A stretch of 64,000 bases of DNA from Salinibacter sp. 10B (lineage in GTDB: Bacteria > Bacteroidota > Rhodothermia > Rhodothermales > Salinibacteraceae). The DNA lies in contig NZ_MQWC01000001.1 of the NCBI RefSeq assembly GCF_002954405.1, forward strand, positions 1 through 64,000, given 5' to 3'. Position numbers and translations under genes: made by a program. The notes under the pieces are model-generated. The model had not been told where the DNA came from. It ran no database searches and worked only from the letters and a program-made list of their open reading frames with translations. This document shows, one piece after another, positions 19,598 through 45,728 of this stretch. Every line of letters begins with the position of its first letter. The stretch's first letter is position 1.

Positions 19598-22441
19598 TTA
19601 TTCCTCCTCCTTCCAAGGGTAAGAGCCACAATACGACCGATCCAGTTCACAAGCCCGATCTACACTCCGGGTGGCCTTGTTTTCTCTTCCTGTCCTGTAA
19701 AGAGCAATTCCACGGTAGAACCAAGTCGCCCCTGCAGAGGAATCAGCTCGTAATGCCTGATCATAACTCTCGATAGCCTTTGGGAGGTTACCACGCTCCA
19801 TCAACAGTATGCCACGATGAAACCAGATTTGAGCTTCGGAGGAATCGGATTCAAGAGCTCGATTCAAGCTCTCAATTGCCTCGTTTACACTGTCTTGTTT
19901 CGCCAAAGCGACACCTCGGTTGGCCAGCGCCTGTGTGTGGGTTGGATCCACCTCTATGGCCTGTTCATAGCTCTTTATAGCATCGGATATCTTACCCAAT
20001 TCATCCAATGCAACTCCTCGATTGTACCATAACTCTGAATTAGAAGAATCAATTTTAAGGGCGTGATTAAAGTTTTCCAGTGCCTCTTTCAAATTCCCCA
20101 GCTTTCCTAGGACGATTCCCCGCTCAATCCAGGCCCTTTTATCGGAAGGGTCGAGTTCGATAGCCCGGCTGTAGCTTCTGATCGCCTCCTCTAATCTCCC
20201 TCGTTGTTGCAATGCATCACCAAGATTGCCCCAGGTTTTCACCTTGGTAGAGTCTAGATCAACAGCTTGATTATAGTTCTCGATTGCTTCCTCTAAGTGA
20301 CCAGTTTTTTTCAGAGCGAGGCCTCGATTGGTCCAAGCCTTTTCAAAAGAAGAATCGATTTCGATTGCCTGATTGTAGCTCGCAATAGCTGCTTCTAATT
20401 TACCCTTCTCTTTCAATACGTTGCCACGATTTATCCACGCCTCTGCTAGCGTGGAGTCGGCCTCAATTGCTTGTTTGAAACTCCTGTTTGCTCGTTCAAG
20501 GCTATCCTGTTGAGCAAGTGTTAAACCTCGTCCGTTCCATGCTATTGCTGAGGAAGAGTCAATTTCAATAGCCCGGTTATAACTCGCCAAGGCAGTAGCG
20601 AGCTCACCTTGTTCTACTAGGATATTTCCCCTCTGTAGCCATGACTCCGTGTAGGAAGAGTCTGCTCGAATAGCCCTGTCGAAGCTTTCGAATGCTTTCC
20701 TAAGGTTTCCGCGATTCTTATACGCCTCCCCGCGACCATACCATGCCCGTACATTTAAGGAGTCATACTTGATAGCTTGATTGTAGCTTCGGATCGCTTT
20801 TTCAAGGTTGTTGCCCCTTTTCAACGCGTCACCACGGTTGCTCCATGCCTTTACATTGGAGGAATCCGCCTCAATTGCGTGGTTGTAACTCTCGATGGCT
20901 AGCTGGATGCTGTCCTGCTTCTCCAGTGCGAAACCGTGGTTATTCCATGCCTTCGAAAGGACGGAGTCAATCCGAACGACATCAATGGCGTATTCGAAGC
21001 TTTCGGTTGCCTTTTCGAAGTTGTTTTGTCTCAAGAGCATGTCACCTCGACCTATCCACGCGGTCGCATAGCTAGAATCGATCTCGATAGCTTGATCGTA
21101 GCTCTCAATTGCTTTCGCGGGATTCCTCTCTTCAAGTGCAATACCCCGGTTTTGCCATGCCTTAGCTAATGACGGGTCGAGCGTAGTAGCCCGTTCATAG
21201 TTTTCGATGGCATTATCAATTTTTCCTTGCCTCCTCAACGCTACACCTCGGTTAGACCAAGCCTGAGCCAAGGAAGAATTTGCCTCGATGGCTTGGTTAA
21301 AGTTGTATATTGCTTCGTCAAGTTCATTACGCTCTAAAAGCACGACCCCCTTGTTAAACCAGGCCTCCGCCAAAGAGGAATCGATCTCGATTGCCCTTTC
21401 GTAGTAGCCGAACGCTTTCTTAGACTTCCCTTTCTCATTCAACGCTGCTCCTAAATTAATCCACGTCCAACCGTAGGAAGAGTCAGCTTCTATGGCTCGT
21501 TGATAGCTTTTAATAGCACCGTCTAAGTCACCTTCATTTTGTAAGGCAAGGCCCTTCATAAAATACTGGGGCAAGTACAGGGAGCCAGGGATGTCTTCCG
21601 GTCGCTCCCATTGTTCTAGAGCATCGTCATAGAAGCCGATAGCATCAACATATGCCCCCTGTCTAAAGCGTGCATAGCCCAAAGTGGCCAGTACTATGTG
21701 TTCGACCTTGTCCGCTATTTTCCACTCGAACTTTCTCGGAGTCGAGGTCGCATAGACACTTTCGCTCCTTTGGGGAATTTTGAGATTCTCAGGTTCCCCC
21801 ACAATCTCAAACTGAAGAGTGGCCCTCGCACTATCAGGAGCGGTGCCAGTTCTATACCAACCCCAGAGAACAACATCTGCATCTTCAGCTTTCCCTATCT
21901 TCCGTGCTTTCTCTCTTCCTTCCTGCACAGTTATTGTGCGTCCCAATGCCAAAACCTTAATACTGTTTAGTTTGGTCGACCTACTTCTGAGCTGTGTCAG
22001 GATCGATTCCGTGACTCCATACTTTTCGTCAGGACCGTCGAGATTAGCTACAAGAATCCGAAATTCGTTCGAATCTGCATAATATTTACCTCTTAAGTGG
22101 CTAAAACCATTATACAAAGCGGCTATATTTATAGATACTAGAAAAACTGTAGCCATTATCCTATAAGTTGATTTGTACCTTGGGGATGACCCCTCAACAC
22201 CTTCAATCCCTCTTCCGATAGGCCTTTTTGAAAGAATAACGTATAATAGGAACGCACATACCAATAGAAATGCTCCTCCTGCAAGTACCGCAACGGATAG
22301 GGTAGTGTCATCTTTTAGAGATTCCGAAATGCTAAGCACACCAGATAAAATTGGTATTGAGGCAACACCCCAATATACTATTTTCTTGACGTATCGTATA
22401 ATTCGTGAAGACTCACCCCTATTAGCATCACTATTACTCAT
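19598..22441 (-). CDS. Membrane-anchored tetratricopeptide-repeat protein
   Basis: A 947-residue protein. Residues 25-125 contain about three hydrophobic helices (one near 27-43, one AVLAGGAFLLVCAFLLYVIL near 50-70, one MATVFLVSINIAALYNGF near 96-113). Then comes a compact domain to about 240 (FRILVANLDGPDEKYG, DADVVLWGWYRTG) of a kind found in other membrane TPR proteins, and finally some 18-19 canonical 34-residue TPRs to the C-terminus (pattern A-x-N/Y-x-x-G-x-A...AIESYDQAIEIDSS). TPR arrays bind peptides or proteins. No catalytic motif is seen. The gene is A+T-richer than its neighbours and lies between two recombinase sequences, suggesting acquisition as a module. Its role is unknown; a sensor or scaffold at the membrane is likely. 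Confidence 0.85.
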   Translation of the reverse strand: MSNSDANRGESSRIIRYVKKIVYWGVASIPILSGVLSISESLKDDTTLSVAVLAGGAFLLVCAFLLYVILSKRPIGRGIEGVEGSSPRYKSTYRIMATVFLVSINIAALYNGFSHLRGKYYADSNEFRILVANLDGPDEKYGVTESILTQLRSRSTKLNSIKVLALGRTITVQEGREKARKIGKAEDADVVLWGWYRTGTAPDSARATLQFEIVGEPENLKIPQRSESVYATSTPRKFEWKIADKVEHIVLATLGYARFRQGAYVDAIGFYDDALEQWERPEDIPGSLYLPQYFMKGLALQNEGDLDGAIKSYQRAIEADSSYGWTWINLGAALNEKGKSKKAFGYYERAIEIDSSLAEAWFNKGVVLLERNELDEAIYNFNQAIEANSSLAQAWSNRGVALRRQGKIDNAIENYERATTLDPSLAKAWQNRGIALEERNPAKAIESYDQAIEIDSSYATAWIGRGDMLLRQNNFEKATESFEYAIDVVRIDSVLSKAWNNHGFALEKQDSIQLAIESYNHAIEADSSNVKAWSNRGDALKRGNNLEKAIRSYNQAIKYDSLNVRAWYGRGEAYKNRGNLRKAFESFDRAIRADSSYTESWLQRGNILVEQGELATALASYNRAIEIDSSSAIAWNGRGLTLAQQDSLERANRSFKQAIEADSTLAEAWINRGNVLKEKGKLEAAIASYNQAIEIDSSFEKAWTNRGLALKKTGHLEEAIENYNQAVDLDSTKVKTWGNLGDALQQRGRLEEAIRSYSRAIELDPSDKRAWIERGIVLGKLGNLKEALENFNHALKIDSSNSELWYNRGVALDELGKISDAIKSYEQAIEVDPTHTQALANRGVALAKQDSVNEAIESLNRALESDSSEAQIWFHRGILLMERGNLPKAIESYDQALRADSSAGATWFYRGIALYRTGRENKATRSVDRACELDRSYCGSYPWKEEE
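19630..21570 (-). repeat. 102-bp TPR-coding tandem repeat array
   Basis: The 3' two-thirds of the TPR gene is a degenerate 102-base repeat (34 codons). Recurring words such as the codons for AIE/AIA-SYN-QAIE and AWxNRGxAL are visible in every unit, but units are diverged, unlike the recent duplications in the STAND gene. Confidence 0.75.
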
Positions 22442-24466: not shown

Positions 24467-24868
24467 CCTTATAATCTATGGCTGAGATTCGGTATCATGG
24501 CGGGGGTTTTGACGCAATGATTTCGATCAACATCTCGCAGGAGGACTACCCGCTAGGCGCTTCACCGACTTGATTAAGGTTAAGACCACACAAGTGTTTT
24601 GGAGCTCGCGAAGCTCCTTCCGCTCACCTGTGCAATGAAACCCTCGGCGCTTTTTCTCTCGTTCCGATCGGCTTGCTTCAGCCAGTTTCGAATGTTGTCT
24701 CGGTTGGTTTTCAAAGTGGAGGAATTTCCACCGTACTGGGCAACTCCAATGGGAGCAAAGGACGCTCCCGCTTCACGGCCAAGAAGTATCTGCGGCGAAT
24801 CAATTGGCAGTGGATCGCCTTCATTTCAACACTGCACGCTGCGACTTAAGTGCTTCGAGACGACCAGA

Positions 24869-26140
24869 ATGATGCAGAACCAGTTTCCTTGGCTCATACA
24901 GCCCAACGAAGAGGACTTTAACACGCTCTGGCAGGAAGGGACCTTTGTCTTTGACACCAATGTTCTTTTGGACCTGTATCGCAGGTCTCGGTCATTCAAA
25001 GAAGACTTTTTTAAGGTATTAGAGGCACTCGATGGACGAGTCTGGTTGCCCCATAAGGTTGCTGAGGAGTTCCTGCGAAATAGATCTGGACCTATTGCTT
25101 CACAACTGGGTGACCTAGATCTGGCTGAAGAGGCGGTCGAGGCCTGGTCTGAGAACCTTCAAAAACTGAGTAACCTACAAGACAAGCTCGAGGATATCGG
25201 GGATCGCAAGGGACCAATAGAACGAGAGGTCGACGATCTGCTCGGTGAAAGCGAACGTCTTCAGGAGGCCGTGGAGGAGTATAAGAATCAGGTTCTTAGA
25301 TCAATTAATTCTCTCCGCGAAGAATTGCTTCCTTCAAGCCCGCGAGCGAGGAAGGATGAAGACGATACGCTGGCCAAGCTAGAAGAGATTTTTGAAGATC
25401 GGGTCGGTGAGCCATACGGTGAGGATGACCGGAATGAGATTTATGAGGAAGGAAACAGACGTTATTCCAAAAATATTCCACCCGGCTTTGGAGACGACAG
25501 CGAAGACAGAGAGTCCCGAAAATATGCTGATCTAGTAATCTGGAAGCAGATAATCGATTATGCTTCCGGTCATGATGTGGATGTTGTCTTCGTAACCAGA
25601 GATACGACAAAAGACGACTGGTGGGAAGAAAAAAGCGGTCGCACTATAGGACCTCATACCGAGCTTCGAAAGGAATTCTATCAGAAGACTGGATCCCTCT
25701 TTTGGATGTACCAAGGCCCGAGGTTCTTGAATATAGCGAAGGAAGAACTGGGTGTGGATGTGAAACCCACCTCAATTGAGGAGGCTCAGCATAAGGATAT
25801 CTCCCAATCGGAGAATGAAATGCTGCAAAGAGCCGCCTCTAATTTCCAGTTGCATAGTACAATAGAGGAGATTCGAAGAGCTTTGGAGCGTGCTCACGAA
25901 TCAGAATCTATGCCTTCTAGGGATCTCGTTGAAAGACTCCAGGATGTTATCGAAAGTCAGGAGAAAAGCTCCTCTCGTTTACACAAGAAGATTTCTCGAG
26001 CCATGAAAAGGGGACAGTCATCCCAGTTAGAACAATTGGTTCGTGCATTAGCTCACGCGCCCGTCGACCCCTCCCTCAAACGGCTAAAGGATCAACTCGA
26101 GATATATACAAAGAGCGGAGAAGAGCAGGAGAAAGAGTAA
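24869..26140 (+). CDS. PIN-like (PIN_8 type) nuclease-domain protein
   Basis: A 423-residue protein. The frame extends left to 24599, but the preceding 90 residues have poor composition; ATG 24869 (MMQNQFPWLI) begins the conserved family start. Residues 10-280 match PIN_8-type proteins: GTFVFDTNVLLDLYRRS with catalytic-type Asp29, VWLPHKVAEEFLRNR, a long charged helical insertion, YADLVIWKQIIDYA, and VVFVTRDTTKDDWW near 240-250 with the second acidic cluster. PIN folds are metal-dependent RNases. The rest is helical and charged. The gene is A+T-rich compared with flanking genes and lies between 15-bp inverted repeats, with a hairpin right after its stop. Such genes are common in defence islands; activity here is inferred from family. 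Confidence 0.85.
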   Translation: MMQNQFPWLIQPNEEDFNTLWQEGTFVFDTNVLLDLYRRSRSFKEDFFKVLEALDGRVWLPHKVAEEFLRNRSGPIASQLGDLDLAEEAVEAWSENLQKLSNLQDKLEDIGDRKGPIEREVDDLLGESERLQEAVEEYKNQVLRSINSLREELLPSSPRARKDEDDTLAKLEEIFEDRVGEPYGEDDRNEIYEEGNRRYSKNIPPGFGDDSEDRESRKYADLVIWKQIIDYASGHDVDVVFVTRDTTKDDWWEEKSGRTIGPHTELRKEFYQKTGSLFWMYQGPRFLNIAKEELGVDVKPTSIEEAQHKDISQSENEMLQRAASNFQLHSTIEEIRRALERAHESESMPSRDLVERLQDVIESQEKSSSRLHKKISRAMKRGQSSQLEQLVRALAHAPVDPSLKRLKDQLEIYTKSGEEQEKE

Positions 26141-26245: not shown

Positions 26246-26752
26246 CTACTCGGTAAGGGTACTTCTCGTCATTTCGACCATCAACCGATCTTGTGGGAAA
26301 GTAAAAGCTGAAATGTCTCTTCTCATGATTCTCCCACCTACCACTATTAAGACAGGAACCGCGCAGTCGTAACTCTCGGACCGTTGTATCTTGCACATGT
26401 GAGTCCGGTCGGTGACGCTCGGTCGAGGTGACTTGTCCGGATGAGTGTGCCATTCGCCCAAGTAGTAGACGCCGTCATCCCAGAGCGCGTTAAGCCGCTC
26501 GCTGAGCCCTCTTTTGCCCCGCTCGAACCAATACCGCCCACCGGTTGAATCAGGTGGTGGACCTATGACCTTCGACACTTCCGCCACGCGGTTCGAATTG
26601 ACGTACTGGCCTACGAGGATTCCACCCGTTTCGGCAGGAGCGGCCTCCTGTCCGAGCGACAATATCTTCCGTACTGGGCTGTCGAGGAGGCGTAAGCGGT
26701 ACTGCCCATCCGGTGACCGAAAACTGATCGCGTCACTGTCAGAGTTACCCAT
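26246..26752 (-). CDS. JAMM/JAB-family isopeptidase (deubiquitinase-like)
   Basis: A 168-residue zinc metalloprotease of the MPN/JAB fold. The complete JAMM set is visible (numbering from ATG 26752): Glu41 in ETGGILVG, His102 and His104 in GEWHTHPD, Ser112 and Asp115 in PRPSVTD. Such enzymes remove ubiquitin-like proteins or process their C-termini; the bacterial CBASS Cap3 and Bil/Bub enzymes are relatives. I prefer ATG 26752 over 26776 because it overlaps the stop of the E2-E1 gene by eight bases (ATGGGTAA), a typical coupled arrangement. It is the last gene of the long minus-strand operon. With the E2-E1 fusion just upstream it completes a conjugation/deconjugation pair. Confidence 0.92.
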   Translation of the reverse strand: MGNSDSDAISFRSPDGQYRLRLLDSPVRKILSLGQEAAPAETGGILVGQYVNSNRVAEVSKVIGPPPDSTGGRYWFERGKRGLSERLNALWDDGVYYLGEWHTHPDKSPRPSVTDRTHMCKIQRSESYDCAVPVLIVVGGRIMRRDISAFTFPQDRLMVEMTRSTLTE

Positions 26753-28553
26753 GCTCTGGCAATCGCTCCTCTTCAAAGTAGTCGCTTAAAGATCCTACCT
26801 GGACGCCAAGACGGTCTTTCGTATGCTCGATAACCTTCAACCGTGGCTCCACCGCACCTGGACCTTTCTCTGAGGCTTCTTGAAGCTGCTGCTCCATCCA
26901 CTTAAGTGCAGGGCTGATTAGGGCTGTGATATCGTCCTGCCGAGCCTCAAACACAGGGTGGTGGCACCCAGTCCCCTCCCAGGGGAGCTCCTTATCGGCT
27001 GACTCTTCCCCTTCCACGTAGTACCACGGTTCCATTCTTTCATCGAACGCATCTACCGGAAAGGAGCTAGCGAAAGCTGAGGAGACGTAGAGGCGGCGGG
27101 CTTGGGCGCTGATTGAAAGCGAGAAAAAGAGCTTCTTCTCCTCCCACTCGAAGCTTCGGAGCTGTCGTAGCGTCTCGGCTTCCGCGGTGCAGTCGATGAC
27201 TATGTCGGCCTTCCGAACTTTCTTTTTCCAACGATCATTGCTGGGTGGAAAGTGCTGTGGACATCCATAAACCTCAACGTTCGGCGAGAGGCTCTCAAGT
27301 CGGGTGGCAAGAGCTTCGGCCTTGTTCTGGCCAACCTCATCAAGGGAAAGGGTATGACGCACCAGGTTTCCCGCCTCCAGCGTATCGCGGTCCATGACGA
27401 AAAGTTTGCGAGCTCGCCCTCGCACCAATAGTTCGCTGAGAGTACTCCCCAGCGCTCCCGCGCCGATAAGGAGGATGGTGTCAGTTGACAGGCTCTTGTT
27501 GAGCTTTCCGCGTGTGGAAACTTCCATCGGACTCCAGTTCCTTGAGCGAAGCCAGCAGATTGGGTCGTCGTCATTGGTCTGATAAGAACCTTCGCCGTTA
27601 TCAAATTGGACGACCGCCCCCCACCAGTGCATCTGCTTCGGAGCTTCCCCAACCCGGTCTGGAATCGGAAAACCGACCAGAAGGATAAAGTTCTCTTTTC
27701 TCCTTGGAAGTACATTCCGCAAGTGTACGTCGAGGTTAACGTCTTGGTGGTTGCATACCGCTCGGAGCTCGCCCCAGGTCTTCGGCGGCCGCCACTTTTC
27801 GGTCACAGGCACCTCCGGAAGCCGGACCCACCTTCCAGTCACGTCTGCATTTGGCAGATCATCGATGTAGCCCCCCCAGGAGATACGCTTGACTGCGCTT
27901 CCCGCATTTGTGCGATATCGCCGTACAACCAAAAGGTTATTGCCCATAGCCCCGAAGGAGCATTGTCCCCCTTGGACTGCACCGTCCCACTCGTGGAGCC
28001 ATCCTTCATTCTCGTGGAAAGCTACGGTAGGTTGCCAATGTAGAAACCTGTGTGAAACGGTTGGTCGAACAGGAAGCGTGAAGTGTTCGCCATCCTGGAG
28101 GAGCTTCCCCACCGAAGCGAGTTCGTACCAACGCAATGCACGTTGGACATACCACTTCAGCTGGCCGTGTCGATCCTTCGGTTCTTCCCCACCACCGAGG
28201 CGACCTAGATTGTGCCTCGGGTGGTTAAGGCACAGCCCTTCTTTCCTCCATGGTTTGCGCTCATCCAGAGAGGGACCGTAGACCATATGGGGATACGTAC
28301 CTTCGATCCCATCCGTCTCCGCGGGATGGATCGACACGCTTCCCTCTGGGTACTTGGGGCTTGCCAGAACGTACGCATCTGTCGGAGAAGAAATTGGTCC
28401 CCCCTCCGGGACATCTGGATAGAGCTTCAACCTCAAGGCCCACCGATTGCGCCGGCTATGCCAGGTCCACTCTTCGGTGACTTTAACAGGGCCCAGATCT
28501 CGAAGCGACAGGGTACCTACATGCAGCGATGGTGGGAGGCTCGGCTCGGTCAT
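26745..28553 (-). CDS. E2-E1 fusion: ubiquitin-like conjugation and activation enzyme
   Basis: A 602-residue protein. The C-terminal half is a ThiF/E1 adenylation domain: glycine-rich ILLIGAGALGSTLSELL near 360, then FVMDRDTLEAGNLVRH, the NKAEALATRL helix, VIDCTAEAETLR, and a GCHHPVF motif near 525 whose Cys sits where bacterial E1s of this group keep a conserved, possibly catalytic, Cys. The N-terminal part (about 30-200) fits a bacterial E2: KEGLCLNHPRHNLG provides a candidate catalytic Cys108, followed by helix YVQRALRWYELASVGKLLQDG as in Cap2-type E2 domains. This layout is known from CBASS Cap2, which links the C-terminus of a client to targets. No CD-NTase is present here. It starts three bases after the YegP gene's stop and overlaps the JAB gene, so the three form one translational block. 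Confidence 0.85.
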   Translation of the reverse strand: MTEPSLPPSLHVGTLSLRDLGPVKVTEEWTWHSRRNRWALRLKLYPDVPEGGPISSPTDAYVLASPKYPEGSVSIHPAETDGIEGTYPHMVYGPSLDERKPWRKEGLCLNHPRHNLGRLGGGEEPKDRHGQLKWYVQRALRWYELASVGKLLQDGEHFTLPVRPTVSHRFLHWQPTVAFHENEGWLHEWDGAVQGGQCSFGAMGNNLLVVRRYRTNAGSAVKRISWGGYIDDLPNADVTGRWVRLPEVPVTEKWRPPKTWGELRAVCNHQDVNLDVHLRNVLPRRKENFILLVGFPIPDRVGEAPKQMHWWGAVVQFDNGEGSYQTNDDDPICWLRSRNWSPMEVSTRGKLNKSLSTDTILLIGAGALGSTLSELLVRGRARKLFVMDRDTLEAGNLVRHTLSLDEVGQNKAEALATRLESLSPNVEVYGCPQHFPPSNDRWKKKVRKADIVIDCTAEAETLRQLRSFEWEEKKLFFSLSISAQARRLYVSSAFASSFPVDAFDERMEPWYYVEGEESADKELPWEGTGCHHPVFEARQDDITALISPALKWMEQQLQEASEKGPGAVEPRLKVIEHTKDRLGVQVGSLSDYFEEERLPEHG

Positions 28554-28556
28554 GAT

Positions 28557-29057
28557 CTACGCGAATTGCTCACGATCAGGGTCCGAAGGATCTGCGGGCG
28601 GTACGAAGCCACCGTTCGAATCGTCTTCGTCGTCACCATCTTCGTCATTCCCACCGGAACCGTCCTCTTCAGTCTCGTCGATAATTTCAGCGACAGGCCC
28701 CTGATTCTGAAGGAGTTCAATCCCACTCCGGGCGTCGCCGCGATTATGATAGCCCTCACTTGCTACAGCGATGATCTCGCTGTTGGGTGCCCGCAAGCGC
28801 CATCGATACTCCCCTTCGTCGTCCTGGTAGAGCTCAAACCAGGAATCGGACTCATGCTCCTTTGGGGACGGTGTCGTCAGGTCTTCCACTTCGGCGCCAG
28901 GAGCATACCCTTGAACTCGCTCTACCGCAGCGAGGCACTCGTCTAGTTCCTCGTAGCTTTCACCCGGCACTGCGATCTCTTCGCCGTTGCGGGCGATGAA
29001 GGTCCACCGGTACTCGTTGGCAGCGTCTTCGAAAATGCGAAACTTAGTATTTCTCAT
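28557..29057 (-). CDS. Duplicated YegP-like (DUF1508) protein with long acidic C-terminal tail
   Basis: A 166-residue protein with two DUF1508 modules: residues 4-55 (FRIFEDAANEYRWTFIARNGEEIAVPGESY) and about 72-118 (FELYQDDEGEYRWRLRAPNSEIIAV, then SEGYHNRGDARSGIELL). Both show the family pattern F-x-(I/L)-x-x-D-x-x-x-EYRW...A-x-N-x-E-I-A. The remaining 45 residues are Glu/Asp/Gly/Ser-rich, certainly flexible, and end in Ala. The start at 29057 has a GGAG four bases upstream; the longer frame to 29297 is spurious. YegP proteins are small soluble proteins of unclear function. As first gene of the block with the E2-E1 and JAB genes, it is the natural candidate for modifier or client; this is inference. 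Confidence 0.85.
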   Translation of the reverse strand: MRNTKFRIFEDAANEYRWTFIARNGEEIAVPGESYEELDECLAAVERVQGYAPGAEVEDLTTPSPKEHESDSWFELYQDDEGEYRWRLRAPNSEIIAVASEGYHNRGDARSGIELLQNQGPVAEIIDETEEDGSGGNDEDGDDEDDSNGGFVPPADPSDPDREQFA

Positions 29058-29127: not shown

Positions 29128-29709
29128 TCAGAGCACGCGCACCTGCCACTCTTGCCCCCCTGACGGACTGCTGACCTTTTCACGGCGAATGAGCCCCAGC
29201 TCGTCGAGACTACGGAGACGGTTGTTTGCGTTTTGAACAGACTGGCCGAGCCTAGAGGCCACCTCAGCTGTCGTCGCGGGAGCAGACTCCCTGACAACTT
29301 CGAATGTCTCCATCAGATGAGGTTTGACCTCGCCGATAGGTTTGATATCGGAAAGGGGATCGTCAGCGCTGCTAGCTACCAGCACAGCCATCCCCTCTTC
29401 GGAAAGCGCAGTCTCGATACCATCTAGGAAGTCGTCTTGCTCCTCAGATAGAAGGATGATGTGACGATCACCATACTCTCCAGAGCTCTGACGACGAAGA
29501 GGCGTTCGGACTGTTGGCTTCGAATACGAATAGCCGATGTACTCCAAGCCGCGGAGGTCGAGAGCTATGACTGCCTTCTCTGGCCGAGACCTGATGAATC
29601 GGTCAAGGTCAGGGCGATTGCGCTCTGCTTCCTCTACGTCGTGGAGTATTTCACTACCGAATTCTTCTCGGAAGCTAAAGGATTCTATGTCGGGTAAAAC
29701 TGTTTTCAT
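29128..29709 (-). CDS. STAS-like (DUF4325-like) protein with winged-helix C-terminus
   Basis: A 193-residue protein starting at ATG 29709 (MKTVLPDIESFSFREEFG); the extra 12 residues of the longer frame begin at TTG and are unlikely. Residues 5-120 look like a STAS-type fold: VIALDLRGLEYIGYSYSKP is a strand-then-signature segment as in DUF4325, followed by RHIILLSEEQDDFLDGIETAL and MAVLVAS. Residues about 130-193 form a winged helix (TTAEVASRLGQSVQNANNRL, then LGLIRREK). STAS proteins bind GHKL kinases/ATPases in partner switches. The GHKL gene lies directly upstream, 39 bases away, so the pair probably forms a switch; the winged helix suggests transcriptional output. Confidence 0.75.
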   Translation of the reverse strand: MKTVLPDIESFSFREEFGSEILHDVEEAERNRPDLDRFIRSRPEKAVIALDLRGLEYIGYSYSKPTVRTPLRRQSSGEYGDRHIILLSEEQDDFLDGIETALSEEGMAVLVASSADDPLSDIKPIGEVKPHLMETFEVVRESAPATTAEVASRLGQSVQNANNRLRSLDELGLIRREKVSSPSGGQEWQVRVL

Positions 29710-29748
29710 GTATCCAATGATACAGAGCAGAAGAACTGCTGTCAAGCG

Positions 29749-30736: not shown

Positions 30737-33700
30737 CTACGCTGACTTCTCTGCTAGCACCTCATGTCCTTCCACCTCCGTCACAGGAACATCAGCCTCC
30801 TCGGCATGCCGATTAAAGTTTAGCTCTAACAACCGACGCAACACCGTCTTACGAGCCCGCTTGCTGATGGTGTACCGAATACGGTCGTCTTCGGGAAGGT
30901 AGTCGACTGCGTGGAAGTCGTGCTCGAGGTCGATGTCGTTCCAGCCGTAAGCGCCGAGGACCTGCCGGTCCATACGGGCGTGTAGATCACGCAGATTGAC
31001 GATCTGGGAAGCGACGGCTTCTGCTACATCATCGGACAGATCGGACTGCGCAGCGGTGGCGACGGTCTCAGGACCAGCGTCAGGGTCGTGAAACAAGTTG
31101 TAGGTCTTGGTCAACCCAAGCTGCATTCGCTCCATGACGGCCTGCCGCTGCTCGTAATACGCCTGCCCAACCTCGGCCAGCGCCGTCTCCTCGTCCTTGT
31201 CGAGACGGGGGAAGGGAAAGGTTTCGAACACTTTGCTGGGCGTGTACCGCAGGTCGCCCTTTAGGGTCGATGCGTTCTTCCAGGCCCACTGCTCGTGAAG
31301 ATTGGACTGGAGAATGGCGAAGTCGTCGTAACTGTCGAGGGCGAAGACCCCGTTCATGTGAGAGAAAACGATATCGTCCTCGTAGAAGACGAAAGACATG
31401 TACTTCGTGTTGAGCGCGTTGACCAGGACGCGGTCAAACGATTCGATCGTCCTGTACAGATTCATGCATGGCTCCGCGAAACGCCACCACCGCTTCCGGT
31501 ATGCTTTACGATTGTTATCAGCTCTGTGTGGCTTGACCTTTTCTTCTACGATTTCAAAACATTCCGGATATTTCTTCGCTTCCGACTTCGGCCAGTCCCG
31601 AAAGTTAATCACCCACCGTGAGGGCTGTTGATAAGGATCACTGTTTAGATCGTCTCCGATAAGATAGGGGAAGAGAACGTCCCGCAGATCTGGATTCTTT
31701 TCCATAAGAACTTCTGCCTCTGCTTCAGAGAGCACGAATCCACTTCCGGACAGGACACTGCCAATGAAGCTGACTTCCGAATTCTCATCCAACTTCTCAG
31801 GGTCAGGCAGCGGCTCTTCATCGGATAGATAGCTGTTTATTTCGTCAACCTCGTCGCCGTCTAAAACGAAATCACCTTCATATTCCCCCTTTTGAATAGT
31901 CGTGAGCGTAACTTTCAGATTTGCTTTGCCGGGCCATTTCTTCGAGCGCTCCGCATAGTTTATCGTCCCCCCCTCATTAAGAATCACGGCAAGACCTCCC
32001 TCTCGTGTACTGCCCTGCGCGATGGTGTTGGTAGCAATACAGCCGAACCCACCTTCCGAATTCAAAATGTCGAAGATGCGGCGGAAGAAGTAGGCGACGA
32101 GATCTGTCGCACCAGCCGGTTCGTACTCGCTCTTGACGTAGGGAAGGAAGTCATCACCAAAAGTACTCTTGAGTTTTCGATTTCCGAGGAACGGTGGGTT
32201 TCCTAAGATCACGTCGAACCCGCCCTCAGCGAAGACCTCGGGGAACTCTAGAAACCAGTGGAAAAAGTTCTTCTCATCGCCCACCTTGCAGGCGGCCTCA
32301 ACGTCCGGGCGGTCCGGCAGGGAACCGGAGCCGTGGAGAAGGCGGCGGAAGGTGCCGTCGGTCATCACCCGGTCTTTGTTCTCCTCAGTTTTCCGGATGA
32401 AGAAGGGCGCGACCTGAGCATCGGCGAGAGTCTTCAGGCGCGTCCACTCGTCGGTTTGGAAGCGGTCGAACGCCTCCTTCTTCTTGCGACGCTCATCTAC
32501 GGTATCGTCAGGCATCGCCTCCAAGTCGTGGAAGCGGCGGGCGAGGCTCTGTAGTTCCTCGCTTACTTCATCTCCCAGTTCAAGCTGAAGACCGCTGGCC
32601 GAACGCTTCTCACGCTCCTCCTTGCTTTGCTTACGAAGCGTACGGAGAACGTCGTTATCGTCGCCCGTTACCTTGTAAAACGGATCATTCGGGATCCCCT
32701 CTCGGAAACTGTCGACGCGATCGACGCCAATGATGGCGTCACCGCACCTGACGCGGTGGTCGAGAAAGGTTAGAGGTTTGCCGGGGTCGTGTGCTTCCAG
32801 CCAGAGGGCAACCTTGCAGAGCTCGACGGCCATCGGATTTTTGTCGACGCCGTAGATGCAGCGGCTGATGACGTCCCGCTTTGCGGTGCGGAGCGCCTCG
32901 GGGCTCGGCTGATCTTCGCCGGTGCGCACCACGGCCAACTCGAACGCAATGCGCCGTGCGGCCGCCAGCAGGAAGTGTCCTGACCCACATGCCACGTCAC
33001 ACACAGAAAGTGACAGGAGCGCCTCTTCCCGTTCTTGCGGGTTATCTCCTGCAGCGTTAAGCTTCTTCTCCATGACGGGGACTAGGGCATTCTCAAGGAG
33101 CGGACGAACGAGTTCCTCAGGCGTGTAGTGACTCCCGGTGTCGTCGCGCTCTTCCCCTTCCTGAAAGCCAAACCCCCATCCTTTGCCGTGCTCTGGTGAG
33201 GCCCCTTCCTGCACAACCGGTTCGTACTCAAGCAGACCTTCGTACACTGACCCAAATTCCTCGACGTTCAGCGCAGCATAGTTCACCCGCGTCCACACGC
33301 CCTGCTCGTTCTTGAATCGGGTCAGCCTGCTGAGCGTGTGAAGGAGGGTGCGGTTGTCGAGGACTGCATCCGTTAATGCCCCCAGGGCGTCGGGGGCAAA
33401 AAGCTCCCCAGCAAGGGGAGCAATACCAACCTCGGCGCCTACATCCTCTCGTTCGAAGAGCCTAAATGTATTGAGGACACGGAGCCACAAGTCGTGCTTC
33501 CGCCCATCGGCAAGTCTTGACTGCTCAGCCAGCGGTCGCAGACGACTCACGGCGTACAACTCATCGTATACTTCCTGAGAGCTCATCCCGTCTCCGTGGT
33601 CGTCTCCTTTCTCGTCTGGAAATACCAGATCCCGCTCTTCAATGACAAAGAGGAATAGGAGACGGTAAACAAAGCGTAGAAGCTGGTTATAGAGCTCCAG

Positions 33701-34519
33701 CGCAGTAAGATCTCCCTCAGCCACGCGCTTTCGAAGATCGGCGTTGTCACGGGCCTGTAGGAGAGCATTTGCCATCTCCTGAATGCCAGTTTTAACCGCA
33801 TCACTCAGCTTCCCCCGAATACGAGCACCTTGCTCCAACGCGTGCTGATGATAGCCTTCTATGATTGATTCGTCGGCCACCTCGGGACGCTCAGGCATGC
33901 GGCTCCGGTGGAGGAGCCGATAGAGGATGGCGAAGTCGGCATATACCTCGTCCTCCATCATCTGGACGAGATCAAACTCCAGGTACGTCAGGCGCGTCAG
34001 TCGCGAGGAGTCGCGTAGAAGGCGCAGCTGGCGGCCATTTGTGACTAGAGCGTACAGATGAGATGTCAAATTGAGATACTCCTGCACCAGCGCGTGCGGC
34101 GAGAGACGAGGCCCGCTGGCCTCACGTCGTCGCTCCAAGCTATCAGAGTATCCCATCACGTGAACTGGGAAGCCGCCGATCGACTCGTCGCGGTGACTTA
34201 GGTCGTAAGTTTCTCCCTGGACGACAGCGGCTTTAGGCTGATAGGTTAGGTTGTAGCCCAACGTGTCCAGGAAGGGTAGAATCCAGAACTGGCGCGTCTC
34301 GGAAGTGGCGGTCGAATCCTCATCGAGGCGCTGGAGCTTGCTCTGAAAGACCTGCCATTGGTGCTTCGTCTCTCCCCAGGCCCGTGCAATTTCATCTTTG
34401 ACCCTCCCTTCTATCCCAAAGCTTCCCGGCGTCTGATCCTGCGCCTCCTGCTCTAACCTTCCCAATAACTCGGCAGACAGAATATTTCCCTGAATCGTGA
34501 TGGTTGGGTATTGCTTCAT
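30737..34519 (-). CDS. Eco57I/PglX-type adenine DNA methylase (DISARM-like MTase)
   Basis: A 1260-residue protein. The N-terminal 330 residues are a conserved segment typical of large defence methylases ([28 protein letters not shown], here seen in two shorter parts: [10 protein letters not shown] and [18 protein letters not shown]). The methylase core has SAM motif I ([18 protein letters not shown] near 506), the segment [23 protein letters not shown], and catalytic motif IV [11 protein letters not shown] near 768 (NPPF, N6-adenine). The C-terminal third should contain the target-recognition domain. No separate nuclease motif was found, so it probably methylates self DNA for the helicase complex. 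The gene follows the SNF2 helicase by 132 bases on the same strand, as in DISARM class 1-like clusters. Confidence 0.88.
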   Translation of the reverse strand: [1260 protein letters not shown]

Positions 34520-34651
34520 AGGAATGAGAGAATTGGAGAACGCAGCGATCTGTATGAACAGCAGTCAGTTAGGGACTCAAAAGAAGTTACATCTCGACCA
34601 TGAGACCTCTTCGACGAACCCTTCACGGATCCTGTCACTGAGCCGGCGAGA

Positions 34652-37480
34652 TTACTCTGGGAGAAGAACGTATACCCCTAGCACATCGGGGGGCCACACG
34701 GGCTCGACCCCTTCATAGCTGGAGCCGCCGACGACCCTGCGATGCCGTTCATGAGCGTCGATCAGGGCCTGGGTGCGAGAACGAGTGATTGACTCCAGAT
34801 CGTCTTTTGCGAACTGAAGATCTTCGATCTCTTCTTCCAAAAACTGACGCTGAGCATTCGAGCTTAGATTGGAAGACGGGACGAGATCCAGAAGAAGGTG
34901 ACGTGCCTCTTCCTCAGACAGCTCTTCTCGGTCTTCGATAAGCCCGCGGTACCCCCAGGTCATCACCTCCTCGGCCACAATTTCTTCGGACTGCTGATCA
35001 GCACGAATGACATTGCGGATGCGAAAGAGAATGAGCGTCGTCTTAATGTCGACAGCTTCCGTCCGGATCACGGCAGCTCGGGAAGGGGCGTCTTCTGCAT
35101 CAGGATCAAAGGCATTCCGCATGACGTGTTGGCACGCCTGCTCAACGAAGGCGTGATTGCGGCCAAGGTACGTGTAGCCGTCAGGAACGGGTGACTGAAA
35201 GGTGACATCTACCTGGTCACTATCAGGCAAGGTTTCGCGGAGCGCGGGGGGAAGTTGGTTCGGATATAGGCGGTAGCCAACGACTTCCTCCCCATTTCGG
35301 CGTGGGTCCATCTGGACTCCCTCATGTGCAGCGAATCGGCGCACGAATCGCTCTACAGCCTGAGGGCTTCCCAAGACGCGATCCGTCTCTTTCAGATCGG
35401 GTTCGATTTCTTCGGGTTGGATCCGATTCTGCGCAAAGATTCCCCGAGTGTTTGTCTCACGCTCCAGTGCTCGATCGAGAGCTTCATTTACTTCCGACTC
35501 TTTGTTTTGAACTGTCTGTGCTTCTAGGCCTAGCGTGAGTTGATCCTGTTTGGCTGCCGCCTCAGGATTCATCAGCACCGCCTGCGTTATCGCCTCGGTG
35601 ATGGTCTGGCTGTCTTCGGGAAATGGAAGTGCAATGCCGGTTTCCTCGTGAATCTTACGGGTTTTGCGGAGGAGAACGCGGGTAATGACGCCGTCGATCG
35701 GGTTTTCCCCTACCATCAGCACAGTCTTTACTTGATCTGCGGCCTGGCCGTACCGATCCACCCTTCCCTCGCGCTGCTCAATGCGATTCGGGTTCCACGG
35801 CAGGTCGTAGTGAATCACAGCGGTGAAGTGCTCCTGCAAGTTGATCCCCTCACTCAGGCAATCGGTCGCAAATAGAACGCGCCGAGGGGCCTGTCCAATC
35901 GCTTCAACGCGATCTCTACGTTGATCATCGTTCAGTTCGCTTGTGACCGCCTCCACTGCGATTTTGGAGTAGGCGTCCTCCAGTACCGGTTTCAGACGCT
36001 CCTCCAGGTAGTTCGCTGTAGGAATATAGCGGCAAAAGACGATGGGCTGGTAGCCCGCCTCCAGGAGATCCTCCAATTGGGCACGGAGCTGCCGGAGTTT
36101 CCAGTCCCCATCGAACGTACGCAGATCTGAGAGCCGATCTGCAAAGGTTTGGAGCTGCTTGACCTCTATAGAGGCAAACTCGGCCGTTTCTGTAAGCTCG
36201 GTAGGCGTGGTGTCGGCATGATTCTCATCAGTGTCGAAAAGTACGTCAGCAGCCGCATCATCGTCCACCTCAGCGTCCTCAGCCACCTTCTCAGCCCGGT
36301 TGCGGAGCATCATTTCTCCTGAAGCGGGGCTGGAAATTACGCCTCGAAGGATGGCCAGAGCGGTCCAGTAGCGCATATGGGACTCAGACCCGTTCTCAAC
36401 GCCGGCGTATCCTCGGGCGAAGCGAAGCACATCGTCGAAGAGCTCCTGATAACCGGGCGACAAGGGGTACTGGGTCTCCTCAGCGATGCGATCAGGAAAG
36501 TCAGTATGCTCCATCCATTCGACAATGTCACGCCTGCGACGCTGTACTACATGTTTGGCAACGCGCTCACGGGTCTGTCGAGGAGCATCTGCCAGCACGA
36601 CATCTTCGAAGTCCGAATCCAAAAAGGCTAGTAGCGACTGAAACGACTCCTCGATGCCGCTATGAGGTGTCGCCGTCAGCAAGAGCAAGTGCTGCTGTGC
36701 TTTCTGGGCGATTTTATGCACGAGGAAGTGCCGCTGCTGCTGGCGGTGCGACGTGGCGCCGCGAGGCAACGTGCAGGTATGTGCCTCGTCTACCACTACC
36801 ATCTCGGGGCATTCCGCCAGAAACAACTGCCGACGGCGCTCAGACTTGATGTAGTCAATCGAGATAATTTGAAAGGGATAGTGACGAAAAACGCTCTCGT
36901 CCCCTTGAATCCGTCGGTCGAGCCGTGCTGCAGTGTCGGTTCGAATCACCTCCACGTCCTCAAACCCAAATTTCTCGCGGGCCTCCTTCTCCCACTGATC
37001 ACACAGGTGTGCTGGGCAAACAACGGCGAAGCGCTCAATCAGGCCGCGATCAACCATCTCGCGAACGATCAGTAGCGCCTCGATAGTCTTACCTACACCC
37101 ACGTCATCGGCAATGAGCAGACGAACGATCTCCTGGCGCAGGGCCATTATAAGTGGCACCACCTGATAAGGGCGCGGGCGCACCGAGAGGCGCCCGAATG
37201 ACCGGAACGGACCTGCTCCACTACGAAGGCCGAGCCGCGCAGCGTCGTACAGTAGCTGAGCCGAGTCGAAATCGGCCAGATCAGCAGCGCTGGGCATCGG
37301 AAACTCGGCAGGCTCGGGAGTTTCATTAGGAAGAGCCAGTGGCAGGTACACGCCAGTGCTTTCCAGTTCGTGTCCCCCGAGTGGCTTAATCCGGAGCACG
37401 TCCGGATCCGACGACGGCATTACAATCCATTCCCGGTCGCGAAGTCGAACGAGTGCGCCAGGATTGAATGTCTGAGACAT
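34652..37480 (-). CDS. SNF2-family helicase (DrmD-like)
   Basis: A 942-residue SF2 translocase starting at ATG 37480 (MSQTFNPGALVRLRDREWIV); the longer frame adds a Cys/Phe-rich leader unlikely to be coding. Motifs: LIADDVGVGKTIEALLIVRE (Walker A near 121), VVCPAHLCDQWEKEA, MVVVDEAHTC (DEAH near 227), LLLTATPHSG, and the helicase C-terminal lobe CLSEGINLQEHF with NRIEQREGRVDRYGQ near 533-575. The N-terminal 100 residues fit SNF2 proteins of DISARM (DrmD). Such proteins translocate along DNA without necessarily unwinding it. Lies between the DUF1998-type helicase (22-60 bases upstream) and the methylase, all co-directional. Confidence 0.88.
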   Translation of the reverse strand: MSQTFNPGALVRLRDREWIVMPSSDPDVLRIKPLGGHELESTGVYLPLALPNETPEPAEFPMPSAADLADFDSAQLLYDAARLGLRSGAGPFRSFGRLSVRPRPYQVVPLIMALRQEIVRLLIADDVGVGKTIEALLIVREMVDRGLIERFAVVCPAHLCDQWEKEAREKFGFEDVEVIRTDTAARLDRRIQGDESVFRHYPFQIISIDYIKSERRRQLFLAECPEMVVVDEAHTCTLPRGATSHRQQQRHFLVHKIAQKAQQHLLLLTATPHSGIEESFQSLLAFLDSDFEDVVLADAPRQTRERVAKHVVQRRRRDIVEWMEHTDFPDRIAEETQYPLSPGYQELFDDVLRFARGYAGVENGSESHMRYWTALAILRGVISSPASGEMMLRNRAEKVAEDAEVDDDAAADVLFDTDENHADTTPTELTETAEFASIEVKQLQTFADRLSDLRTFDGDWKLRQLRAQLEDLLEAGYQPIVFCRYIPTANYLEERLKPVLEDAYSKIAVEAVTSELNDDQRRDRVEAIGQAPRRVLFATDCLSEGINLQEHFTAVIHYDLPWNPNRIEQREGRVDRYGQAADQVKTVLMVGENPIDGVITRVLLRKTRKIHEETGIALPFPEDSQTITEAITQAVLMNPEAAAKQDQLTLGLEAQTVQNKESEVNEALDRALERETNTRGIFAQNRIQPEEIEPDLKETDRVLGSPQAVERFVRRFAAHEGVQMDPRRNGEEVVGYRLYPNQLPPALRETLPDSDQVDVTFQSPVPDGYTYLGRNHAFVEQACQHVMRNAFDPDAEDAPSRAAVIRTEAVDIKTTLILFRIRNVIRADQQSEEIVAEEVMTWGYRGLIEDREELSEEEARHLLLDLVPSSNLSSNAQRQFLEEEIEDLQFAKDDLESITRSRTQALIDAHERHRRVVGGSSYEGVEPVWPPDVLGVYVLLPE

Positions 37481-37538
37481 ATGAAAGAAGCAGTTCGGAC
37501 AGAAGTGAGATAACAAACAATAGAGACAAGGGACTGGA

Positions 37539-40500
37539 CTATCGGACAGAACGGAAAATATCCCCGTTCTCGTCGAGAAGAGTATCCAGAGGCTCTGAGT
37601 AGTGGTACTCGATTACGCGATAGCCATGAGCGCGAAGCTTCCGACGAACGTTCTCATCGTGCTTCTTCACTTCGGAGTCATCATGAGGTGACCCGTCAAC
37701 GAAGACAGCGGCCCGTTCCTCCTCGTAGTAGAAGTCCGGCTGTACGTATAGCTCTGGCGGCGTCCACTGCGCATAGTCGGGAAGCCGAAGGTTTCGTTCG
37801 TACAGGCGCTCCAGAAAGTCGTCTTCCAGCGTTGAGTTCGGGTCCGTTTGCTGAAGAAGGCGCTGATACTGTTCATCGTAGTCTTCTCCAGTTGCTGACT
37901 TTGATTCGAGATCGCATGCCAGTAGCATCTCCAACGCCCCACGAATCAGCCTGCGGTCTATGCGCTCGTGATGGTACTGGTTGTAATAGCTCAGAAGATC
38001 GTCATACGAGGCTTTCGGCTTGCTAGCTTCCTCCTCCGGATCCTCGTTGAAATGACATAGATCATACGCCACCTCAACTACCTGCCGAAACCGTTCCGGC
38101 GCCTCCACAATCTGCGACAGAATACCCAAGCTTCCCTCTGCTGCCTCATAGATCATCAAGTTAGGTATGTCCTGCTCGCCCATGAGGGTGGATTGGATCT
38201 CGCCAGACTCCACCTGAAAGACTCGAATAATGGCCTGCTGCAGTGCGTACTGCAGGGTTAACACCCCGTCTTCGTCCAGGTCAAGAGCGCTCGATGGGTG
38301 TATGTACAATGCGTCAGCGACGTCGCTCGTGTACAGCTTCACCCGTTCCCAGTCCGGCACGTCGGGATCGCTCGGATCCATATCGGGACTCGGGGATCGC
38401 GCCCACGTGCCGGTAGAGGGATTCACCATGAAGCCCTCTTGATCGTAATAACGCCACCCTTGATTGACGAAGTAGAGCCGGGCGGTCGGCACGTACTTGA
38501 CAGACAGAAGCGGTTCCCCATCCGAAGACAGGAGCAACTCCTGAACGTCGTCCATCGGCCCGTCGACACTGAAATAGGTGTCAATCTTGTATCCCTCCCG
38601 CGAACGCTCTTCCTCTTCGCATGTGATGTTCTCGCGCGGGTAGGTACGCACTTCCGAAAGCTCCAGCAGATTCGGAAAGCGTTCTCGATCGTTTTCGGTG
38701 TTGAGCGGAGTGTTCGTGAATGGGCAGTTTGTCCGATTCCTCTCCTCACCAGCGAGAAAATACCCAGAATGTTTGCTGACCTTTGCCTCAATCTGGCTCG
38801 TCTCTAGATCCAGGTTCTGAAGGCGATTAACCTCGAACTTTGAGCCGTTGTGATAAATGCGGTTGCGTGGCCCAAACTCACGAAGAGCAATCTCCCTTGG
38901 CCGCGAGATGTACTCGCCTCCCTCTCCTATCGGCATGTATGCCCGAATAGGCAGGCGTGTGAAGTTGTATCCGGGGAGGAAACCTTCCGACGCTAGATAT
39001 CGAAATGGATAGAACTCGGAGTAGTAACGTGCACCGCGGGCTTCATTCTTTAGAAGCGCAATCTGCCGCCGGGCTTGCCTTTCTTCCCGTTCCGCTTCTT
39101 GGCGCTCGTCACTCGACGGGGTGAGCACCGGATCGTCCAGAACTTTCTGGGCTTCCTTCCGCTGCCGGACGGCTGACCGGTAAAGCGACCGCCAGCGATC
39201 CAGTGCCTTATCGAACTTGTTTGGCACCGCACGAACCGCGTCCTTGATCCATGTCTCGGTATACCAGGATCGGCCAATGCGTTCATGCAATCGGCCAAGT
39301 GTACTTCGAAACCGTTGGGCAATACGTTCTTGTTGATCAGGAGAAAGCTCCAACTCTTCTTTCACCTCTCTGCGAAGCGGCAAGTCTGGATCGTCGAGCT
39401 TTAGGAGGCTGCTGACAGCGTCCTGAAGCGCGCCAAGGCCTACCTCTGAGAGGTACAGTGCGTGGAGGTGTGAGCGAAGCAGTTCTTCGTTCTTGAGATC
39501 CAGTCGTGGGGGATTCACCACCCCGGCAACCATGTCCTTTTTGTTCTGAAAGAAGTGTCGGTCATGTGGAGAGCTATTCGAGCAGTACGTGACCGATAAA
39601 GCTGCTTGCCCTACTCGACCTGCTCGACCACTTCGCTGTGCGTAGTTCGCCGGATTGGGTGGTACATTGCGCATGTGTACCACTGCCAAGTCCTTTATAT
39701 CAATGCCGAGTTCCATGGTCGGCGAACAGAAGAGAGCTTGCAACTGCCCTTCTCGAAAGTCTTCTTCTCGCTCCTGACGGTCGCTGTTCTGAATTTGGCC
39801 GGTGTGCTCTGCACCTGATAAACTTCCTTCGAAGTCGGAGTCTCTCGAGTAGACCTCTCGAAAATACTGGTTGGCTTCAGGCTCCGGCAGATTCTTTTTC
39901 GCCTGTAAACGCACATCGTCTCGGTAAGGCTGTATCTCCCGGTCCTCATTCGGCGCTTTCCACAGGAGCCGGTTGACCTGGAGGCGATAAAGAGGTATTT
40001 GCTCTCCTCTGTACTCCTTCTCGGTCCGACTCAAATACCCGAGACCAGTCAAGACCCCCAACAGGTCGTCCATAAACTGGTCATAGGCCGTACGATCAGA
40101 AAGGTGGAGTCCCAGCTCTTCGTGGCGGCGCAGATGTTTTCCTAAGGCGCTTCTATACCCGACGCTGGTAGAGGGCACGTCCCGCCGCTGGAAAGATTGC
40201 ACATACGCATATTTCGGATGCTCAATCTCTTCTTCCTCGGAATCTAGTCCCCACCGCGCAGTCAGCCGGTCCCGGATGAGGTGACTGTTTGTATTGATAT
40301 TTTGTGCTTGCAGGTCGACGTGGTCCAGGGCGTAGCTGGTGCGGAAGTAGTTCAGGATATCCTTCAGAAGGCCAAAGCGCACCTCTTGGCTCATGTCCCT
40401 TAGGGCATCCACTGTCTTCCATCCCTCATCTTGTCCCGCTATTTCGCTTAGGTTTTTGTACCCGATCTCCAGTAGCGCGCATTGCTCCAGGTTCGGAAGC

Positions 40501-42701: not shown

Positions 42702-42793
42702 AGACGTGAGAGCGGAGACCTATACTGAGGCGCTGTGGGGCGGAATAGAGTCCGATCTGACCAGATAAGGAAAGACCGGAGCAGAAGAACTGC

Positions 42794-42812
42794 CGAGAGA
42801 ATTATTCTCTCG
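42794..42812. promoter_or_regulatory. Palindrome in the 160-bp gap inside the operon
   Basis: CGAGAGAAT and ATTCTCTCG form a perfect 9-base inverted repeat around a single T, about 90 bases before the start of the 1720-residue helicase gene. It is the largest intercistronic gap of the operon besides the ones near 34.6 and 30.7 kb. It could be an internal operator/promoter region or a transcript hairpin. Confidence 0.4.
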
Positions 42813-42861
42813 AATCGATGTGTTTTCAAACTATGAAAAGGGGAGAGCGAAGACAATAGCA

Positions 42862-45651: not shown

Positions 45652-45728
45652 AACTGAAGAGAGACCTGAAATAGAAAGGACTTGACTGCGGGCCAACCAC
45701 ATTGGTGCCGATTTGGACCGTGCAAAAC

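Follow-up and report, generated by a model that had tools for sequence, protein, structure and literature searches.

We analysed a window of 64,000 nucleotides from Salinibacter sp. 10B (contig NZ_MQWC01000001.1, positions 1 to 64,000 of the forward strand) and examined in it a three-gene operon that encodes a YegP-type protein, a fused E2-E1 enzyme and a JAMM protease. An earlier note, made from the sequence alone, had proposed that these genes form a compact protein-conjugation system with YegP as the client. The features of the operon are the following.

28557..29057, minus strand: YegP-type candidate client, 166 residues, with two DUF1508 units and a disordered acidic tail that ends GGFVPPADPSDPDREQFA
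28560..28613, minus strand: proposed conjugation handle GGFVPPADPSDPDREQFA, the 18 C-terminal residues of YegP, with Ala166 as the candidate activated residue
26745..28553, minus strand: E2-E1 fusion of the Cap2 family, 602 residues, with E2 Cys108 and E1 Cys530
26246..26752, minus strand: JAMM isopeptidase of the Cap3 kind, 168 residues, with a complete motif

The coordinates agree with the block that the note described: the YegP gene is followed by a 3-base gap and the E2-E1 gene, which overlaps the JAMM gene by 8 bases. The first product had been called a double DUF1508 protein with a flexible tail, and this was borne out. PF07411 matched it over two stretches (E 1.7e-29; whole-protein score 101.9 bits, cut-off 22). 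It shares DUF1508 units with E. coli YegP and HVO_2922 (UPF0339), and its nearest solved relatives, by both sequence and fold search, are YegP/UPF0339 proteins. A weak structure model (58.7), used for tail disorder and the family match alone, predicted the tail to be disordered, with predicted local distance difference test (pLDDT) values below 50 over residues 120-156 and 158-166. Pfam, sequence and fold searches of this protein, the last with the weak model, returned the YegP family instead of a beta-grasp fold. Like clients of Cap2, it carries a C-terminal Ala (Ala166) on a tail that this model predicts to be flexible.

The second product is indeed an E2-E1 fusion with Cys108 and a GCHHP motif, as the note had it, and its identity can now be corrected: by profile match it is a Cap2 of the type II cyclic-oligonucleotide-based antiphage signalling system (CBASS) kind, nearly end to end. 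Pfam detected ThiF (E 1.3e-21) and left the E2 part undetected. The best PADLOC E1-E2 model, PDLC00848, covered residues 5-564 (512 bits), and a six-sequence profile of the window E2-E1 and five relatives matched the Cap2 of PDB 7TO3 over profile positions 5-576 of 605 (462 bits). Cys108 and Cys530 (GCHHP) occupy the E2 and E1 cysteine columns common to the aligned full-length relatives; a Spirosoma fragment stops short of the E1 site. At both catalytic positions of the 7TO3 alignment the PDB chain carries Ala; a natural plasmid relative, found in the E. cloacae complex, carries Cys at both, as do the window protein and the other full-length rows. The third product matched Prok-JAB (Pfam, E 5.7e-16) and a PADLOC JAB model (147 bits), and a motif check found the JAMM motif entire (E41TGGIL and H102THPDKSPRPSVTD). 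It scored 40 bits with the NCBIfam Cap3 model, below the cut-off of 200.

Published work, cited here and below from excerpts, describes what such enzymes do. In type II CBASS, the C-terminal Gly or Ala of a cGAS/DncV-like nucleotidyltransferase (CD-NTase) is bound by Cap2 as a thioester, the CD-NTase becomes joined mainly to lysines, and Cap3 cuts the link; this terminal Gly or Ala is conserved in CD-NTases that occur with full Cap2 and Cap3 and not in other architectures (PMC10097602). The B. cereus cyclase, which ends KPGGFA, was found joined to PspA (PMC11153139). The Salinibacter operon resembles type II CBASS in its Cap2 and Cap3 families, in the order client-Cap2-Cap3 and in the C-terminal ending of the client. 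It differs in that YegP, not a CD-NTase, occupies the client slot, and the operon contains neither a cyclase nor a cyclic-nucleotide effector (SAVED, patatin etc.). The note's statement that a ubiquitin-like gene and a CD-NTase are absent holds for the operon proteins, which gave no ubiquitin-like match in Pfam, PADLOC and NCBIfam profile searches; genome-wide, one CD-NTase query found no match, a weak negative. YegP, which stands in the CD-NTase slot and has a CD-NTase-like ending, should be joined through Ala166 by this chemistry. We give a probability of about 0.8 to the reading of the operon as a Cap2/Cap3 module for conjugation, with YegP in place of the CD-NTase as client.

The earlier note had set conserved YegP/E2-E1 linkage in other genomes beforehand as its test. 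With the window included, such linkage was found at 15 loci in 14 genomes; YegP ends -FA at 14 of them and -VG at one. These loci are the window, G278, G471 and the Spirosoma plasmid NZ_CP087140; two Hymenobacter and four Pontibacter loci on genome contigs, identified by a DUF1508-plus-tail pattern; two in G1002; and one each in G971, G1036 and G1009. In this reverse direction the pattern led to YegP/E2-E1 operons in six of seven genome matches; the seventh, L030, was rejected as a false positive. Three of the four Pontibacter loci have identical YegP sequences. A JAMM gene follows E2-E1 in the window, in Spirosoma, at the six pattern loci, at both G1002 loci and in G1009; the stretch from G1036 is cut off too soon to show one.

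The YegP/E2-E1 operon is rare. A phylum search of 394 genomes (E<=1e-20) found the E2-E1 in its own genome, G278 and G095, the last accompanied by a CD-NTase, and a class search of 244 genomes found it in its own genome, G278 and G471; the 12 further genomes listed from the same genus gave no match. Weaker E2-E1 matches in G042, G029, G084, G087 and G322, and a second one in G095, were left out of the locus count. DUF1508 matches were found in 16 plasmid records, of which the Spirosoma one was examined. Three scans of viral contigs gave no YegP operon: four loci were of CBASS type, and two pattern matches were discarded as false after visual inspection of their reading frames, beside which no E2-E1 was seen. 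Phage records held two weak DUF1508 matches.

Several loci have features of their own. Contig 75 of G1002 (40.8 kb) carries two complete YegP/E2-E1/JAMM operons, L142 and L143, whose YegPs and regulators are alike and not identical. The Spirosoma E2-E1 (L014:4788-6582) is broken into two reading frames of 451 and 120 residues, by a frameshift or a sequencing error. At the Pontibacter loci a YhcG-type PDDEXK nuclease gene is convergent with the JAMM gene (L060:10247-11854, where the Pfam test was made), and similar frames occur in L032, L033 and L034. In G131, G034 and G013 (L084, L085 and L086, respectively), three genomes of the same order, DUF1508 matches lie within open frames of more than 1,200 residues, a possible fusion.

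The enzymes are common to the CBASS and YegP versions, which would fit a CBASS remnant that lost its cyclase and by chance acquired a passing yegP gene in its place. In the tree, YegP recruitment needs three changes and a single change appears in no bootstrap tree; a single clade had an approximately unbiased (AU) test p of 0.235, so one versus several origins is left unsettled and we claim neither. The intact motifs, the 3-base and 8-base spacing, the 15 recurring loci, the matched tail and the presence of two operons on one contig all argue against chance replacement, which we consider highly improbable.

The C-terminal tails link YegP to the CD-NTases. CD-NTases beside related Cap2s, including those in front of the plasmid relatives of our E2-E1, end for the most part in -RFA, -RFG or -LFG, and GGF or GGY often precedes this end. 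Frequent forms are GGFT...GRFA in CD-NTases and GGYIPP...GRFA in Cap2-linked YegPs. An F[AG] end is present in 13 of 15 distinct CD-NTase tails and in all 8 distinct YegP tails, compared with about 1/100 of shuffled YegP tails. The best test used a sample picked by DUF1508 alone, with 54 DUF1508 genes from 200 genomes of one family. Eleven of these genes lie directly before an E2-E1, and 10 of the 11 products end -FA, against 0 of the other 43 (Fisher 4.6e-10). Six of the 11 had already come up with the tail pattern; leaving them out gives 4/5 and 0/43 (p 2.6e-5). In an earlier control, 22 distinct unlinked DUF1508 proteins from returned loci, the window genome's second DUF1508 protein (ending -EEKQ) among them, included none with -FA or -FG. 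In lacking an -FA or -FG end, the sampled unlinked proteins differ from the window YegP. The operon YegP is the sole DUF1508 protein found in six carrier genomes; in G1002 and G1009 there is in addition an unlinked DUF1508 protein (L116, L129), which does not have the ending. The CD-NTase-like tail end and, in the family sampled, the restriction of -FA to E2-E1-linked DUF1508 proteins give comparative support to the note's proposal that YegP is a client activated at its C-terminal Ala.

Tails can also bind without being consumed and no product is known, so YegP might instead be a sensor or adaptor whose tail merely docks to Cap2 and regulates conjugation of another, unlinked client. This seems improbable to us: the terminal residues are kept (-FA at 14 of 15 loci, -VG with another enzyme), as expected for an activated carboxylate, and no other recurring client gene was seen in the loci read.

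The -VG locus, L148 in G1009, encodes a YegP body similar to those of the Hymenobacter loci, then a different E2-E1, then JAMM. This E2-E1 matched PADLOC PDLC00855 in its E1 part (85 bits) and has a CxxC pair. Its YegP, the eleventh E2-E1-linked DUF1508 protein of the sample above, has the tail end NPPQPPKDRQVG (fuller tail ...PRNPPQPPKDRQVG), with -VG and not -FA. Among plasmid records, 13 matched this second E2-E1 and five were examined. All five have a short proline-rich frame of about 48-81 residues, ending -VG (one -VGQQ), which precedes the E2-E1 gene and in one case overlaps its annotated start.

Proline-rich frames: L155:3803-3979, L156:3322-3492, L157:3338-3484, L158:2992-3237, L159:2549-2737

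Examples of the encoded peptides are NPPVPPKPRQVG and NPPKPPKDRPVGQQ. Such a peptide is perhaps a modifier that is hardly more than a tail, apparently unstructured. The L148 YegP carries the tail of the second enzyme; therefore a YegP body bears a tail matched to each enzyme, a comparison drawn from one YegP locus and five peptides. These findings tentatively suggest, at slightly less than even odds, that E2-E1s read a grafted tail on an interchangeable body (a cyclase, YegP or a near-bodiless proline-rich peptide), that YegP is attached via two tails by two enzymes and that its attachment is the immune output. Some clients extend past the likely activated residue, ending QFAESDS (L067:2341-3465, L069:2272-3396) or VGQQ (L155:3803-3979). 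By analogy with ubiquitin precursors, such extensions suggest trimming by JAMM.

Two putative regulator genes lie immediately upstream of the operon. They were absent from the original finding, and supplement its description of the operon with genes of a damage-responsive type.

29128..29745, minus strand: CapS-like STAS-wHTH repressor, by phmmer match to PDB 9z71 (E 9.9e-8) and 9z72 (E 7.3e-6), which are named as CapS (PMC13373217)
29749..30603, minus strand: CapK-like GHKL kinase with a shorter N-terminus, by BLASTP match to two CapK-like proteins

On the Enterobacter roggenkampii plasmid NZ_CP109730, a homologous pair stands upstream of a multiubiquitin/ThiF/DUF6527 operon, and the CapS-like protein is 29% identical (E 7e-14) to the product of the gene preceding that operon. 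Its Ser72 aligns with CapS Ser54, provided that the paper and the plasmid gene share numbering. The CapK-like protein gave no Pfam match at E<=1 and showed weak similarity to the two CapK-like proteins (E 2e-6 and 2e-16). The GHKL motif residues match, as does the gene order; Asn148 aligns with CapK Asn218, and the N-terminal part is missing. Regulators at other loci are a helix-turn-helix protein with an M78 peptidase (G278, Spirosoma), a WYL protein (Pontibacter virosus) and M78 proteins (two Hymenobacter, P. diazotrophicus). Several YegP/E2-E1 loci adjoin CapK/S-, CapH/P- or CapW-like regulators. CapK phosphorylates CapS upon DNA damage, which derepresses the next operon; a yegP homologue lies downstream of 57 of 443 capKS pairs, and 88 pairs sit just downstream of restriction-modification genes (PMC13373217). 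In the window, a DrmMI/type IIG-like gene (PADLOC) precedes the CapK/CapS-like pair.

The neighbouring genes include, on the minus strand at 30737-45702, a block that PADLOC marks as defence-like, with the DrmMI/type IIG methyltransferase, DpdE/DrmD-like and DruE-like helicases and an MkoC-like protein. Beyond the other end of the operon and convergent with it, a PIN_8 domain protein is encoded at 24749-26137 on the plus strand (E 2.7e-54). At 19598-22441 on the minus strand lies a gene for a 947-residue protein that, judged by eye, has a hydrophobic N-terminal region followed by a large number of TPR-like repeats.

In the scheme that we infer for activity, target and regulation, DNA damage would activate the CapK-like kinase, which would phosphorylate the CapS-like repressor and allow expression of the operon. 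Cap2 would adenylate Ala166 of YegP and pass YegP to E1 Cys530 and E2 Cys108, and YegP would then be joined to a target lysine, from which the JAMM protein could cut it off again. Recognition by the enzyme would depend on the grafted tail at the C-terminus instead of on a ubiquitin fold. Since no recurring dedicated effector was seen, the likely output is the attached YegP itself or a change to its target; we favour conjugation itself as the output and DNA damage as the trigger.

A role in defence is likely. PMC13373217 leaves open global stress roles for yegP and Bub loci, and damage-type regulators are compatible with either role, so YegP may be conjugated for stress or housekeeping instead. 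We regard this as a real possibility and the less probable one, given the patchy distribution, which extends to the same genus, the defence-like genes among the window neighbours and the occurrence of Cap2/Cap3 relatives in CBASS.

Our case for a conjugation module with YegP as client is comparative, built on the genes, their families and catalytic residues, their linkage and the tail conservation, and several points weigh against it. No conjugate, thioester or phenotype is known. By eye, the loci read had no dedicated effector in common, which leaves the benefit unexplained; the YhcG nucleases of Pontibacter and the PIN_8 protein of the window are not common to all loci. G278 and G471 have no JAMM gene adjoining E2-E1, and none is listed for G971 (L146). 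The window YegP ends -QFA, not -RFA. Two of the 15 distinct CD-NTase tails lack the F[AG] end: two haloarchaeal CD-NTases extend beyond QFA, and one from a viral contig ends RFSQIC. The longer motif G[FY]x(1-2)[PR]x(6-14)F[AG], composed after the tails had been inspected, is present in 10 of 15 distinct CD-NTase tails and 5 of 8 distinct YegP tails (about 1/10,000 in shuffled YegP tails), and is missed by those of G278, G471 and Spirosoma. A structure model of the E2-E1 was set aside as too weak (mean pLDDT 62.5, residues 79-122 below 50).

Related systems are known. Bil and Bub systems conjugate ubiquitin-like beta-grasp modifiers with E1, E2 and peptidase proteins, and in Bil conjugation itself is the output. 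The Salinibacter operon has a like enzyme set; unlike theirs, its YegP is not a ubiquitin-like beta-grasp protein. CapK and CapS also occur with Bil/Bub operons (PMC13373217). Iyer et al. 2006 listed E2-E1-JAB operons of two kinds, 6a with a metallo-beta-lactamase and 6b with a nucleotidyltransferase; the words DUF1508 and YegP are absent from its main text (PMC1779556). The E2-E1 and JAB of type 6a are related to ours (NCBIfam 6A-MBL, NF058523, 112.6 and 96.5 bits, cut-off 320), but 6a has a triple protein, whereas the window has a separate JAMM gene, no metallo-beta-lactamase and YegP instead. The 57 capK-capS-yegP neighbourhoods are like the window in having CapK/CapS-like genes before yegP and downstream of modification-type genes; unlike it, no conjugation enzymes are named for them in the excerpts (PMC13373217). 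The note's claim that no system with a YegP client had been described thus stands for conjugation and needs amending for yegP beside capKS, which is already in print. No paper on YegP or DUF1508 conjugation was found in the literature searched, which takes in no bioRxiv preprints and leaves out most subscription journals. Within that literature, the enzymes are known and YegP as a client is new, as far as we have seen.

YegP would be a further conjugation client without a ubiquitin shape, for machinery so far known for an antiviral signalling enzyme. We propose that the tail is what the enzyme recognizes. The finding suggests what some DUF1508 proteins may do, and searching for such tails in front of E2-E1 genes may be a route to more clients.

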